Shown here in pieces: positions 42,077 through 49,366 of a stretch of 64,000 nt of DNA. Below the pieces are notes generated by a model. It had not been told where the DNA came from, ran no database searches, and was given only the letters and a program-made list of their open reading frames with translations. The translations under genes and the position numbers were made by a program. Positions within the stretch are counted from its first letter, which is position 1. Each line of letters begins with the position of its first letter. Source of the DNA: Balneolaceae bacterium (GTDB lineage: Bacteria; Bacteroidota; Rhodothermia; Balneolales; Balneolaceae); NCBI GenBank assembly GCA_017640605.1, contig JAEPQH010000003.1, forward strand, positions 1 to 64,000, written 5' to 3'.

Positions 42077-42280
42077 AATACTATACGCTAATGTTATTGC
42101 TCCAAATCTATTATTTTTTTACAAAGAACAGTACAAACTTAAGAAATATTAATATACGATTGTATATACAGCTACATTTTCGCAGTAAACGAATTTTATA
42201 ATCTAATCTCGATATTTGATCTAATATTGAGGACTAATTTTTTCTGAAAAACGGCAGAATTCGGGTCTTTCCCTTCTTCC

Positions 42281-42330
42281 TCTCGTGCCGAACCTCCGGT
42301 TCGGTATGCGTGCCTGAACCACTGGTTCAA
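42281..42330 (+). repeat. REP element, copy 1
   Basis: Two palindromes in a row. P1 is ccgaacc-tcc-ggttcgg, P2 is tgaacc-act-ggttca, joined by tatgcgtgcc and preceded by tctcgtg. It is the same design as the elements flanking the RAYT gene at 43767, so it is a member of that family without its own transposase. Confidence 0.8.
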
Positions 42331-42340
42331 CTATTCGAAT

Positions 42341-42414
42341 TGCGGATTTAAGGGATTTACAGATTACGCAGATGAACATCCGCGAAATCCAGTAATCCGT
42401 CTAATCCGTGATTC
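42341..42414. repeat. Imperfect aatccgt/ggattt-rich repeat
   Basis: A stretch of short inverted words (ggattt, gattacgcagat, aatccagtaatccg, ctaatccgtgattc) between two REP copies. It has the look of a degenerate intergenic repeat family; the function is unknown. Confidence 0.45.
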
Positions 42415-42448
42415 TAAATTATGATGGTGAGGTGGAAATGATACCTTA

Positions 42449-42499
42449 TTCTCGTACTGAACCACAGGTTCGGTATACGTGTTTGAACCACTGGTTCAT
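42449..42499 (+). repeat. REP element, copy 2
   Basis: P1 is ctgaacc-aca-ggttcgg (one end mismatched) and P2 tgaacc-act-ggttca, with the lead ttctcgta. Same direction as copy 1; this is a degenerate member. Confidence 0.75.
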
Positions 42500-42524
42500 T
42501 TTTTTGATTGCTGTTAGACAATTA

Positions 42525-42577
42525 GTGGAACCAGTGGTTCCATATTAGCATCACGAACCCGTGGTTTGTGACGAGGG
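42525..42577 (-). repeat. REP element, copy 3, opposite direction
   Basis: Read on the minus strand: cctcgt, P1 cacaaacc-acg-ggttcgtg, linker atgctaata, P2 ggaacc-act-ggttcc. It forms an inverted pair with copies 1-2 in the BIME manner known from enterobacterial REPs. Sequence variant is the same as the element downstream of the RAYT gene. Confidence 0.8.
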
Positions 42578-42593
42578 GAAAACGGAATCACTG

Positions 42594-42953
42594 CTATTCA
42601 ATTACTTCTATCAAATATTCTTTAAAAGGATCACTTGATAATGGGTCTCGATCAATAACATGAACAAGTAAATCATACTCACCCGGATTATTTGGAGTAT
42701 CCCAAACCGTCTTTGCTGTAGTAGTTGTTCTAACTTCTGAGTTGGCAATTACCCAAGTAAACTCATAGTTATCCAGATTTAAGCTATCAGAAATAATTAC
42801 CTCAAATTCTACTTGAGAATTGGTTTTTATGGTCTCGGGACTTGTTCTCAATTCTAAAATCGTGGTATTGAAGACCGGATCGTCATCTATATTTCCATCG
42901 CAAGAAGTGACAATTAGTAAGAGACTAATCGATATGAGGATGAGGTTATTCAA
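42594..42953 (-). CDS. Small lipoprotein with PKD/Ig-like domain
   Basis: 119 residues: lipobox IVTSC (Cys18), then a single beta-sandwich of about 95 residues (FNTTILELRTSPETIKTNSQVEFEV, NYEFTWVIANSEVRTT, NNPGEYDLLVHVID). PKD-like domains bind sugars or proteins at the cell surface. It resembles the neighbouring gene 43041-43397 in layout and in the FTWVI/FIWVI core. A+T-rich, consistent with an accessory segment. Confidence 0.6.
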   Translation of the reverse strand: MNNLILISISLLLIVTSCDGNIDDDPVFNTTILELRTSPETIKTNSQVEFEVIISDSLNLDNYEFTWVIANSEVRTTTTAKTVWDTPNNPGEYDLLVHVIDRDPLSSDPFKEYLIEVIE

Positions 42954-43040
42954 AGTTTTTTTAATAAGTAATGAAAAGCAAAAATTTGCTCGTTCTTCTG
43001 TGCCTAGAGAAAAATTAATTTGTATTTCATGTCCCCAAAT

Positions 43041-43397
43041 TTAGTTAATAACAAAAAAACGAAAAAATTCTTGATCACTGAAAGTATTATTAATATTAAC
43101 ACTTAGTGTATTTATGTTATCACCTTCAATAAGTGCCTCAATTTCAAGTTCACATCTTTGAGTGACTATAGTTGATGGATATCCTTTAATCACCCAAATA
43201 AAAGACAAATCAGGTTTATAATTACTAAGTATACAATTTATAAACACTTTATCCCCAATTATAGTTGTATCTGGGTAAACACTTACAGAAGTAATTTCGA
43301 CAATTGGTTCATCTGGGTCAGGTGTACCGGAGTTTGAAGGTAAATTACATCCGATAAAAACGGTAATAATTACGATGATCAGATACTTAAAAGGCAT
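43041..43397 (-). CDS. Small lipoprotein, paralogue of the next gene
   Basis: 118 residues with a short signal and Cys at 17 (VFIGC). One Ig-like domain with the same core as 42594-42953 (VEITSVSVYPDTTIIGDKVFINC, SFIWVIKGYPSTIV). It lacks the acidic end of its neighbour. The start overlaps the end of a truncated barrel gene upstream, which suggests they were once co-transcribed. Function unknown. Confidence 0.55.
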   Translation of the reverse strand: MPFKYLIIVIITVFIGCNLPSNSGTPDPDEPIVEITSVSVYPDTTIIGDKVFINCILSNYKPDLSFIWVIKGYPSTIVTQRCELEIEALIEGDNINTLSVNINNTFSDQEFFRFFVIN

Positions 43398-43631
43398 AGT
43401 GCGAACCTAAATGAAATTCCATCAAAATAAATGTTAGATACTTTTTTTGAATTACTTTGATTGTCTTTAATTGAATGACTTAAATCTCTATGATAACCGA
43501 AAGAAAATTGAAACTTTACGTGTTTCGGAAATTTATATTCCAATCCAAAAGATAAATTTAACCTAGCTAAATTTTCACTATATAAGTGAGTAATAGAAGT
43601 TGGTATACTGTTCCCAAAAAAACAATACTTA
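43379..43631 (-). pseudogene. Truncated outer-membrane barrel gene
   Basis: The minus-strand frame starting near 43648 has no signal peptide and begins inside a REP copy. It holds beta-barrel strands such as LNLSFGLEYKFPKHVKFQFSFGYHRDLSHSI and NIYFDGISFRF. In the adjacent frame a canonical barrel end, FHLGSHYAF and stop, appears, which suggests a frameshift as well. This is best read as the 3' remnant of a barrel gene broken at the REP/RAYT insertion. Confidence 0.5.
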
Positions 43632-43706
43632 TTCTCGTACCGAACCACCGGTTCTTCTCATACCGAACCACCGGTTCGGTATGCATGCCTGAACCACTGG
43701 TTCAAC
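43632..43706 (+). repeat. REP element flanking the RAYT gene, upstream side (copy 4)
   Basis: A complete element (cattaccgaaccaccggttc type P1, ccgaacc-acc-ggttcgg; linker tatgcatgcc; P2 tgaacc-act-ggttca) preceded by an extra partial P1. It lies 60 bp before the RAYT start, in the same direction as the gene. Confidence 0.85.
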
Positions 43707-43766
43707 AATTCTACAAATAATTTGTAAGGAGTTCATCAAAAACACGTCCTACTAAATAAAAAAGAT

Positions 43767-44303
43767 ATGGGACGAAGTCGATATAAAATCCACGAAGAGT
43801 ATTATCCTTACTTTATCACCTGCACAGCTAAGAGTGGACTTCCGCTCTTTTCAATTCCAGCAGTTGCCGAAATAATTCTAAACAATCTGTTGTATGTACA
43901 ACGCCAAAGAGAAGTCACGCTTTATGGATATGTGATCATGGAAAACCACTTTCATGCTATCGTTTTGGGGGATGATCTATCAAAGAAGCTGCGATTAACT
44001 AAATCATTTATGGCTCGACAAATTGTGGACTTACTGCAAGAATTGAACAAGTTTAAACATTTAAGAGAGCTTCAGTTTCGTAAACTATCTCACAAGAAAC
44101 GATCGGATTATCAGGTTTGGGAAGAAGGTTTCCACCCTAAGCAAATTGATAGTGATAAAATGATGATCCAAAAATTGGAATATATTCACTTCAATCCTGT
44201 TGTCAGAGGTTTTGTTGATTCTCCAAATGATTGGAGATATTCATCTGCGAGAAATTATAATGGCGAGGCAGGGTTAATACCAGTTACACTTTTTTCAGGG
44301 TAG
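43767..44303 (+). CDS. REP-associated tyrosine transposase (RAYT)
   Basis: 178-residue single-domain Y1 transposase of the IS200-like HUH superfamily. Metal-binding HUH motif HFH at 61-63 (MENHFHAIV) and the catalytic Tyr Y139 in LEYIHFNPVVRG are intact. RAYTs act on REP palindromes; the gene here is bracketed by two REP elements pointing towards it (43632-43706 and 44306-44361), which is the REPtron arrangement. The N-terminus MGRSRYKIHEEYYPYFITCTAKS matches the family. No second gene and no target duplication were found. It may be active, since all key residues are kept. Confidence 0.9.
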   Translation: MGRSRYKIHEEYYPYFITCTAKSGLPLFSIPAVAEIILNNLLYVQRQREVTLYGYVIMENHFHAIVLGDDLSKKLRLTKSFMARQIVDLLQELNKFKHLRELQFRKLSHKKRSDYQVWEEGFHPKQIDSDKMMIQKLEYIHFNPVVRGFVDSPNDWRYSSARNYNGEAGLIPVTLFSG

Positions 44304-44305
44304 GT

Positions 44306-44361
44306 AGTGGAACCGGTGGTTCCAAGTAGGCATCACGAACCCGTGGTTCGTGACGAGGGGA
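44306..44361 (-). repeat. REP element flanking the RAYT gene, downstream side (copy 5)
   Basis: Minus-strand order: cccctcgt, P1 cacgaacc-acg-ggttcgtg (8-bp stem), linker atgcctactt, P2 ggaacc-acc-ggttcc. It points towards the gene, so gene plus both elements form an inverted-repeat cassette. The stems differ from copy 4 by paired changes (ccgaacc to cacgaacc, tgaacc to ggaacc). Confidence 0.85.
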
Positions 44362-44398
44362 AGGATTACTCTAAAAGTGACTGTGAACTTGAAGCCAT

Positions 44399-44434
44399 AA
44401 AAAAAGCCTTCCTGCATTCGCAGAAAGGCTTTGT
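44399..44434 (-). terminator. Terminator after tRNA-Val
   Basis: Minus-strand hairpin aaagcctttctgc / gcaggaaggctt around gaat, followed by ttttttatgg. It lies 7 bp past the 3' end of the tRNA gene. Confidence 0.85.
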
Positions 44435-45960: not shown

Positions 45961-46036
45961 ACTCGTTGATAAGACTCAGCATATTTTTAAAAAGTCTCCC
46001 CTCCTTACCAAGGAGGGGAACAAGGGGAGGTCCGAA
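45961..46036 (+). repeat. DUF559-linked structured repeat, copy B1 (partial)
   Basis: 3' portion of the element: actcgttgataagact, weak agact/agtct stem, then hairpin cccctcctt-acc-aaggagggg and the tail aacaaggggaggtcc. It lacks the 5' closing arm and first hairpin. It begins 24 bp after the fadI stop. Confidence 0.8.
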
Positions 46037-46077
46037 TCGAGCACGAAGTTATTTAAAGAGCTCAAGCCTCCAACTTT

Positions 46078-46187
46078 TCGACCTCATCTGTCTTCTCCTT
46101 CTCAAGGAGAAGAACTCGTTGATAAGACTCTGACCATTTTTACAGAGTCTCCCCTCCTTATTAAGGAGGGGAACAAGGGGAGGTCGA
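46078..46187 (+). repeat. DUF559-linked structured repeat, copy B2 (110 bp, complete)
   Basis: Closed by an 8-bp terminal inverted repeat tcgacctc ... gaggtcga. Inside are hairpin H1 tcttctcctt-ctc-aaggagaaga, H2 agactctg (46125-46132) with cagagtct (46143-46150), and H3 cccctcctt-att-aaggagggg. The four stems give a cloverleaf-like fold if transcribed. It ends about 40 bp before the DUF559 gene. Confidence 0.85.
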
Positions 46188-46225
46188 AGTATCGACTTAG
46201 TATTTCATTCAATATCTGAGATTTT

Positions 46226-46597
46226 ATGGGCCTCAAAAATCCACAAAATACTAAACACTTACGTCGCGAGCTTCGACAAAAGATGACAGAAGCTGAAACC
46301 GTGTTATGGGATCATGTTCGAGCCAAAAAATTGGGTGTAAATGTAAAACGACAGTATGGAATTGGACCTTACATATTAGACTTTTATATCCCAAAAATTA
46401 GACTCGCCATAGAAGTGGATGGGGGGATTCATCTAAAACCTGAGGTAAAAGAAAAGGACATCAATAAAGATGCTTTTTTGAATGAAAACGGAATTAGGGT
46501 AATCCGGTTCACTAATGATGATGTCTTAAATAAGACTGCAAGTGTTTTATTTGAAATTAATACAAGAGTTGAGGCTGAAAGTGATCAATCAACTTAA
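46226..46597 (+). CDS. DUF559 endonuclease-like protein
   Basis: 123 residues with a Vsr/restriction-endonuclease-like core: MTEAETVLWDHVRAKKLGV (helix), then KRQYGIGPYILDFYIPKIRLAIEVDGGIH with acidic residues D52, E63 and D65 and His69, the DUF559 signature, and NGIRVIRFTNDDVL. It lies between fadI and fadJ and is bracketed by complete copies of the structured repeat (B2 and B3). The repeat family seems to travel with this gene type in many bacteria (recalled, not tested). Nicking or mobilising the repeat is a plausible role. Confidence 0.85.
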   Translation: MGLKNPQNTKHLRRELRQKMTEAETVLWDHVRAKKLGVNVKRQYGIGPYILDFYIPKIRLAIEVDGGIHLKPEVKEKDINKDAFLNENGIRVIRFTNDDVLNKTASVLFEINTRVEAESDQST

Positions 46598-46600
46598 ATA

Positions 46601-46746
46601 CCGACCTCTTCCACCTACGTACAAATACATACTTCGGTGGATAAATCTGTTTTCTCCTTCTCAAGGAGAAGGACTCGTTGATAAGACTCCAAACAATTTT
46701 AAGGAGTCTCCCCTCCTTACCAAGGAGGGGAACAAGGGGAGGTCCG
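46601..46746 (+). repeat. DUF559-linked structured repeat, copy B3 (146 bp)
   Basis: Closing arms ccgacctc / gaggtccg. It has an extra module of 36 bp (tccacctacgtac, loop, cttcggtgga and aaa) right after the 5' arm, then H1 ttctccttctcaaggagaa, H2 agactcc (46684-46690) with ggagtct (46703-46709), and H3 cccctcctt-acc-aaggagggg. In H2 the paired change from tg/ca in B2 to c/g here keeps the stem. It lies just downstream of the DUF559 gene. Confidence 0.85.
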
Positions 46747-46810
46747 AACCGAGCAAGAATTTATCCAAAAAGCTCAAACCACACACACAACTCAACTTAC
46801 AACTGATACT

Positions 46811-48922: not shown

Positions 48923-49009
48923 TTTATTTCTGCCACGGAAGCACAAAAGCACGGAATTTGTATTGATTAGATCTCGTATCGAATTACTGGTTCTCAAATC
49001 CCCAATTTT

Positions 49010-49155
49010 TCGACCTCTCCCACCTACGTACGAATACGCACTTCGATGGATAAATCTGTCTTCTCCTTCTCAAGGAGAAGAACTCGTTGATAGAACCCCA
49101 AATAATCTTACAGCGTCTCCCCTCCTTGCGAAGGAGGGGAACAAGGGGCGGTCGA
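49010..49155 (+). repeat. DUF559-linked structured repeat, copy B4 (146 bp)
   Basis: Arms tcgacctc / gcggtcga (one mismatch). It carries the same 36-bp module as B3, H1 tcttctcctt-ctc-aaggagaaga, a decayed H2, and H3 cccctcctt-gcg-aaggagggg. The decay at H2 and the arm suggests this copy is no longer maintained as strictly. Confidence 0.8.
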
Positions 49156-49188
49156 TTAACGAAAAGACAACCTACACAAAAATCATGT

Positions 49189-49215
49189 TTAGGCGCATTA
49201 GGCGCATTAGGCGCA
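49189..49215 (+). repeat. Nonamer tandem repeat
   Basis: ttaggcgca occurs three times in a row. The matching place in block 2 has two degenerate units, so copy number changes between the blocks. Confidence 0.8.
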
Positions 49216-49366
49216 GGTTATTCGATCTCATCACCGGAACCACTGGTTCCACAACCGAAGCATGTTTACCACTAGTCCCACTATCTCCCAAATCGCAAAG
49301 CTACAATACACTGCAACTAGTACTAGCGTTTTGAATATTATCCGCGAAATTTCTAATTTGTTACTC

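Follow-up and report, generated by a model that had tools for sequence, protein, structure and literature searches.

The first 64,000 nucleotides of contig JAEPQH010000003.1 of a Balneolaceae bacterium (assembly GCA_017640605.1), hereafter the window, carry a gene for a REP-associated tyrosine transposase (RAYT) set between two inverted repetitive extragenic palindromic (REP) units. We read this cassette as a mobile RAYT element with two-hairpin ends and its own promoter, the latter being read by an extracytoplasmic function (ECF) sigma factor devoted to DNA uptake and recombination, and estimate the probability of this joint reading at roughly 0.78. It is built on features taken from sequence, namely the enzyme family and fold, the ends, their dispersed copies, copies of the whole unit in relatives, a shared promoter-like motif and the arrangement of this motif with a sigma gene. 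The original prediction had proposed a complete REP-RAYT cassette in a Bacteroidota-type genome; family, fold, inverted flanking units and dispersed copies all support the cassette, while the host was placed only loosely right, since the family Balneolaceae belongs to the phylum Balneolota and not to Bacteroidota proper.

The transposase

The open reading frame (ORF) of 178 aa and the residues HFH 61-63 and Tyr139 are as originally described (Table 1), and H61, H63, Y139, N143 and P144 are invariant among 42 homologues. Besides NHFH, the protein exhibits WE (WQ in most relatives), YIHFNP and an SS tail, shortly after which it stops, without a C-terminal helix-turn-helix (HTH) or Bac_DnaA_C extension. 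It scores 99 bits against the NCBIfam model REP_Tyr_transpos (NF047646; cut-off 80), and the best match in the PDB of its AlphaFold model (predicted local distance difference test, pLDDT, 92.5) is TnpAREP (4er8; E 3e-9, template modelling score 0.66); a Pfam search of the protein at 1e-3 returned no domain, Y1_Tnp included. By family, signature, modelled fold and REP association, the gene is a RAYT. That it would instead belong to a plain insertion sequence of the IS200/IS605 family is very improbable: the HUH Y1 fold, the hairpin ends and the movement as a unit in relatives would suit such an element, yet the signature is that of class 2, Y-x-x-x-N-P and not Y-x-x-x-Q, the family and structure matches just given point to RAYTs, and single units lie scattered over the genome.

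Hairpin ends and dispersed REP units

As predicted, two bipartite elements face the gene from either side. The units follow a single plan, consisting of an outer hairpin (H1) with an 11-bp stem, the foot CTCGT and ATGC on the 3' side, a linker, and a shorter inner hairpin (H2). In the cassette, H1 reads CATACCGAACC/GGTTCGGTATG at the left end (LE) and CGTCACGAACC/GGTTCGTGATG at the right end (RE). Folding of the LE and RE units as single-stranded DNA (ssDNA) gives z-scores of -6.0 and -5.3 relative to shuffles, and the LE unit is recovered by the covariance model at E 7e-19, a value obtained for a training member. The canonical GT[AG]G was not found at the 5' foot of the hairpins, which is CTCGT in nearly all ends. 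The tetranucleotide GTAG lies beside the RE of the window only and is not conserved in the LE, in the gene-less element (Table 1) or in relatives, so that it was dropped as a REP tag and considered a coincidence. Regarding the CGTC-tagged REPs of Di Nocera, the foot of the right unit does read CGTC, yet this identity is not claimed because the general foot is CTCGT[TAGC].

Table 1. Location of the RAYT element and of related features in the window.
Feature	Position	Strand	Details
Isolated LE half unit	42277..42331	+	
Gene-less REPIN (REP doublet) or miniature inverted-repeat transposable element (MITE)	42445..42580	+	LE (42448-42500) and RE (42525-42578) like those of the cassette
Extra partial LE H1	43628..43654	+	In tandem, ahead of the complete LE unit
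LE two-hairpin REP unit	43654..43706	+	H1 43659-43683, 11-bp stem, loop ACC; linker; H2 43690-43704
Regulon promoter-like motif TTGTAAGGAGTTCATCAAAAACACGTCCTACTA	43722..43754	+	Inside the mobile unit; motif start to ATG 45 nt
RAYT/TnpAREP-like Y1 HUH transposase, intact, 178 aa	43767..44303	+	HFH 61-63, Y139, YIHFNP, WRYSSARNY tail
RE two-hairpin REP unit	44307..44360	-	H2 44308-44324; H1 44331-44355, CACGAACC type; tag ACGAG 44353-44357
Decayed half units	48967..49252	.	LE-type H1 48967-48993; H2-type hairpin 49237-49249

Copies were counted across the host genome (3.74 Mb in 34 contigs, the window lying on contig C1) by pattern and covariance-model searches. The core GAACCNSNGGTTC is present 11 times in the window, for 0.01 expected, and 16 times genome-wide, for none of the reversed pattern. 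Because five of these copies sit outside the window, on contigs C7, C32 and C33, the absence of further copies that would have spoken against the cassette does not apply. At E < 0.01, the covariance model retrieved the 10 training units and about eight weaker ones. The original prediction included neither the REPIN nor the half unit at 42277-42331, nor the copies on other contigs.

The original prediction also saw two subtypes of element, one on each side of the gene. Locally this stands, as in all three two-ended copies (the cassette, the REPIN and an element on C32) one left-type end is combined with one right-type end; since it recurs in the REPIN and the C32 element, the left/right difference in H1 appears to mark the left and right ends of one element. 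Genome-wide it is no two-way split, because a third type, CGAACAACTTGTTCG, occurs on C7, C33 and C24 besides the (A/G)CCGAACC left ends and the CACGAACC right ends, which makes at least three H1 subtypes. Nor is the asymmetry general: of 35 related cassettes, about half have the same 5' arm of H1 on both sides. On C14 and C26, RAYT remnants are accompanied by REPs of a second subfamily (H1 core AACGTCC, H2 core GAAGCTCC). A second RAYT subclass is also encoded (G000:C1:221949-224282, L025), with a protein of 182 aa, 34% identical, and its own AAGCGGACGCTTG hairpins; it is nested among RAYT remnants, adjoins a secA-like gene and has the promoter-like motif too (C1:223455).

Beyond the host, a RAYT homologue was found at E <= 1e-10 in 41 of the 92 Balneolaceae genomes searched, and close homologues (49-53%) also occur in Nostoc/Anabaena, Thiohalocapsa and a deltaproteobacterial metagenome-assembled genome (MAG); on plasmids, the search for relatives returned distant ones only (24-43%). 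The two-hairpin plan is kept at most of the Balneolaceae cassettes examined and at the homologues from Nostoc/Anabaena, Thiohalocapsa and the deltaproteobacterial MAG, where the stems have changed (CTCGTTCCGAACG.., CTCGTTCCCAACC.., CTCGTTCCGTAGC.., CTCGTTCCCAGTC..). Identity between LE and RE is 0.93 within one element and 0.72 between ends of different elements, with shuffles reaching at most 0.79. GC-rich hairpins in intergenic DNA could in principle be ordinary transcription terminators or attenuators that flank the gene by coincidence, an explanation to which we give hardly any credence considering the conservation of plan and foot across phyla, the lack of a run of T, the arrangement in inverted pairs, the matching of LE and RE within the same element and the copies bounded by the hairpins.

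Movement of the whole unit in relatives

In the literature, RAYTs figure as transposases that have been domesticated and no longer move; what they do and how they spread REPs are unsolved questions. A single-copy, non-mobile gene is a usual RAYT trait, albeit not a strictly defining one, and it applies to the host genome but not to the relatives G003, G021, G022 and G041. In G003, a genome in one contig, the unit is found at 733 kb and again at 3269 kb, and the two copies share 98.5% identity over 726 bp. This identity extends from CTCGTTCC to GGAACGAG, to within a few flanking bases that match by chance; beyond it, no similarity between the flanks is detectable on either side. The unit copies of the same-family relative Gracilimonas amylolytica (G021) are 95-98% identical and sited at contig breaks, while G022 and G041 each have two copies, at 90% and 85%, respectively. 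Movement as a hairpin-bounded unit is thus seen in relatives, at its best in G003.

These sharp-ended G003 copies and the multicopy units of G021, G022 and G041 bear on the possibility that the cassette is an immobile, domesticated REPtron of the gammaproteobacterial kind, where the enzyme spreads REPs and the gene stays put. Such a REPtron would agree with the one intact copy of this RAYT lineage in the host genome and with a 2021 paper stating that evidence for tnpAREP mobility is lacking. Against it also stands the protein tree, in which host genera are mixed, several lineages co-occur per genome, and a single branch with the cyanobacterial, gamma and delta members arises from inside the Balneolaceae diversity; an immobile REPtron is consequently held to be quite unlikely.

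The insertion-target logo displays a weak T-rich preference, with TTnnC ahead of CTCGT. At the window locus, the left end coincides with a break (43630) in a neighbouring gene, X, which continues in the relative G032, as would be consistent with an insertion or a rearrangement there. In G032, the spot syntenic to the gap 42169-44428 of the window (G032:C33, L084:1076-4714) holds a 1212-aa ORF of the Eco57I/TaqI restriction-methylase type, with an in-frame Y1 transposase domain (residues 585-685; Pfam Y1_Tnp 5e-12) between the methylase motifs, and the tRNA-Val/thiolase site has the appearance of an insertion hotspot. Elsewhere in G032 (C50, L083), which is of the same genus and has no detectable RAYT, half units of the REP family seen in the window are found at the homologues of the genes at 42609-43630, one of them interrupting a lipoprotein gene.

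A promoter-like motif shared with DNA-uptake and recombination genes

Between the left end and the start codon lies a promoter-like motif (Table 1) that is the only match in the window at <=2 mismatches. In the Balneolaceae RAYT leaders examined, all but two have TGTAAG or a one-base variant, and in 51 of 53 it is followed at a fixed spacing by xTC, the offset between the motif halves being 24 nt. At <=3 mismatches, the full motif matches eight times in the host genome, against one for the reversed control; at <=2 mismatches, the 14 relatives have 1-14 matches per genome, against 0-1. It also occurs in genomes in which RAYT was not detected. With at most one mismatch, it is present in 19 of the 25 Balneolaceae genomes sampled and in none of 35 genomes from other families of the class.

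In the host genome, the genes 3' of the motif comprise ssb, comM and recQ, together with an IS200 tnpA and two four-helix-bundle genes. Among 84 downstream genes, ComM is encoded by 11, Y1 transposases by four, SSB by four, RecA, ComEC, RecF/RecN and integron integrase by three each, and RadC by two; comEA-like, GIY-YIG, DUF559 and 23S-rRNA-IVP genes and several types of Y1 transposase gene complete the picture in relatives. The integron integrase was identified by TIGR02249 (E 1e-135). Such integrase genes with the motif are found at L219, L228, L229 and L318 (G009, G012, G002), and in G002 one adjoins another motif-bearing Y1-like transposase gene. The largest class, 17 of the 84, is that of small four-helix-bundle proteins (23S_rRNA_IVP, PF05635; e.g. 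G000:C1:167867 and G000:C15:52268). In G001, G002, G004 and G007 (L309-L312, L320), a small GIY-YIG gene is repeated almost unchanged, both inside one genome and from one genome to another; the motif lies 36 nt ahead of the ATG of every copy, and the gene may be a further mobile passenger under this regulon. On these sequence grounds, RAYT appears to be switched on by a promoter common to the DNA-uptake and recombination genes of the host, which would couple the expression of an ssDNA transposase to this regulon.

The motif has the -35/-10 spacing and the position relative to start codons expected of an ECF promoter. From its start to ATG, the distance is essentially never below 34-36 nt, where it piles up for ComEC, GIY-YIG and RAYT genes alike, the pattern to be expected if the shortest transcripts from a -35/-10 promoter were leaderless. 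Which base precedes TC in the -10 half depends on the genus (C in g4 and T in g11, for the most part G in the others), and the base of the RAYT copies is the variant of the host genus in 46 of 48 cases, which none of 10000 shuffles reaches; RAYT lineages are partly vertical within genera. The fixed spacing and the asymmetry of the halves led us to discard an RNA hairpin formed by GTAAG and CTTAC in the leader.

A more serious alternative, though still an unlikely one, is an operator: the motif would then serve a dimeric regulator, which may be LexA-like or a competence activator. Its halves GTAAG and CTTAC are inverted and weakly dyad-symmetric, as an operator would have it and to the detriment of a promoter, and the regulon includes the SOS-type genes recA and recN. 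Nevertheless, the conserved flanks of the two halves differ (TTGTAAGGAA vs. xTCTTACTA), and an operator sits poorly with the fixed offset, with an ATG essentially never nearer than ~34 nt, with the placement of the motif after an ECF sigma gene in almost every genome and with its co-occurrence with this sigma gene, the motif being absent from the other families sampled.

A candidate ECF sigma factor

An ECF-type sigma gene was detected in all 14 genomes tested (host copy C14:280109-280645), and in 12 of them the motif lies directly behind it, at +545 to +558 (<=5 mismatches). Two more Balneolaceae genomes have the same arrangement, as do the four of the sister family, in which the -10 half of the motif has changed. 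In G026 and G009, the motif is located between the sigma gene and a downstream tetratricopeptide repeat (TPR) gene, whose product may be the anti-sigma factor. Sigma orthologues (L274:2297-2848, L284-L297) are followed by the motif and a transmembrane TPR gene, with ruvB or radC adjoining in some genomes. Judging from this arrangement, the conserved ECF-type sigma factor is a candidate master regulator of DNA uptake and recombination in Balneolaceae.

Proposed mechanism and significance

In the proposed scheme, the enzyme probably recognises single-stranded ends folded into H1 and H2 and most likely nicks the tips of the element and joins them elsewhere. REP units would have been moved in this way singly and as LE-RE pairs devoid of the gene (REPINs), and, in contrast to textbook RAYTs, so would the complete unit with its gene. 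The cleavage of ssDNA and the strand transfer, as well as the strand concerned, the position of cleavage and the intermediates, are inferred. The mobile unit would bring its own promoter, of the TTGTAAGGA-N15-GTCTTAC type, recognised by an ECF sigma factor of the host with a regulon spanning DNA uptake and recombination; therefore, the transposase would probably be made when ssDNA is present in the cell, both the identity of the sigma factor and this timing of expression being predicted. A wider formulation seems reasonably probable to us, according to which, in Balneolaceae, a single ECF sigma factor is dedicated to uptake and recombination genes, recombinases of folded single strands (RAYTs of several subclasses, IS200 TnpA and integron integrase) have been brought under its promoter time and again, their movement is timed to ssDNA, and the RAYT cassette with its promoter makes a true transposon.

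Several observations weigh against the mobile, sigma-controlled element proposed here. The host genome has no near-identical second copy of the unit but only remnants and a different RAYT, because of which mobility is demonstrated for relatives only. No clean empty site turned up: seven congeners searched for the G003 copies had no junction joining flank to flank, and neither G032 nor G031 had such a site for the window locus, the syntenic spot in G032 holding a different insertion. The high paired fraction at related ends arises partly by construction, pairing having been demanded in the hairpin search. Lastly, when the match between promoter base and host was controlled for the tree, just one or two supported independent pairs were left, none in the opposite direction, a number that cannot reach significance.

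A RAYT lineage in which the unit still moves, and which has left recent, nearly identical copies in one finished genome, offers a direct system for studying RAYT and REP movement. The promoter link predicts that RAYT expression follows the DNA-uptake and recombination sigma factor; through this link, three classes of recombinases of ssDNA hairpins would be bound to a single state of the cell. Besides, a candidate sigma factor for DNA uptake is now named in the phylum Balneolota.

Other features near the cassette

Between two of the REP units (42331-42445), short repeats of the 'aatccg' type (gcggatttaagggatttacagattacgcag...) are present, similar pieces of which occur elsewhere in G032. A dispersed repeat of 108-143 nt, coding-like ('SPLLTKEGNKGRSE'), is found at 45961-46221, 46602-46780 and 49011-49189 and surrounds a DUF559-like ORF (46226-46597).

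Comparison with known systems

RAYTs beyond gammaproteobacteria, which the original prediction took for a novelty, were already published, as subclasses 2.4 and 2.6 had been reported in Cyanobacteria and Bacteroidetes (Quentin 2018, PMC6006769). In the searchable literature, outside which most subscription papers fall, no report was found of RAYT mobility and regulatory coupling; nothing pertinent emerged for RAYTs in connection with competence or with ECF sigma factors, nor was a relevant paper found by element sequence.

The window element has in common with RAYT/TnpAREP systems (E. coli tnpAREP, 4ER8; REPtron, REPIN) the protein family, the HUH motif and tyrosine, YxxxNP, inverted palindromes and dispersed REPs and REPINs. 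It differs by the lack of a conserved GTAG/GTGG tag (foot CTCGT...ATGC), by two hairpins per end, by copies of the whole unit in relatives and by its own regulon promoter. Among the subclasses, 2.4 (Bertels group 4) is comparable in its range, which spans cyanobacteria and Bacteroidetes. Subclass 2.6 (Bertels group 5) is the likeliest slot, to be taken as a lead: its printed motifs (PMC6006769) comprise ~179 aa, NH[LIV]H, WQ, YIH[QN]NP, an SS tail and atypical REPs in Bacteroidetes, and the window RAYT agrees in length, NHxH, SS tail, Bacteroidetes-type hosts and REPs without GTAG, while its HFH and YIHFNP depart from them.

The TIRtron (Di Nocera 2013, PMC3733652) likewise has a RAYT-like gene (TIRYT) between inverted repeats, a figure legend mentioning 'double palindromic TIRs' (terminal inverted repeats); TIRYTs, mainly of subclass 2.1, have C-terminal HTH domains that are not in the window protein. 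With IS200/IS605 elements (IS608, ISDra2), the window element shares the Y1 HUH fold, subterminal hairpins and movement as a unit, but it differs in sequence class, YIHFNP standing where YxxxQ (Y[IV]ENQ) would be expected, and in its solitary REP units and REPINs. As far as sequence can tell, it works like an IS200-type element but belongs to another sequence class. What is most unusual, and was absent from the original prediction, is unit mobility in relatives and the promoter shared with a regulon.
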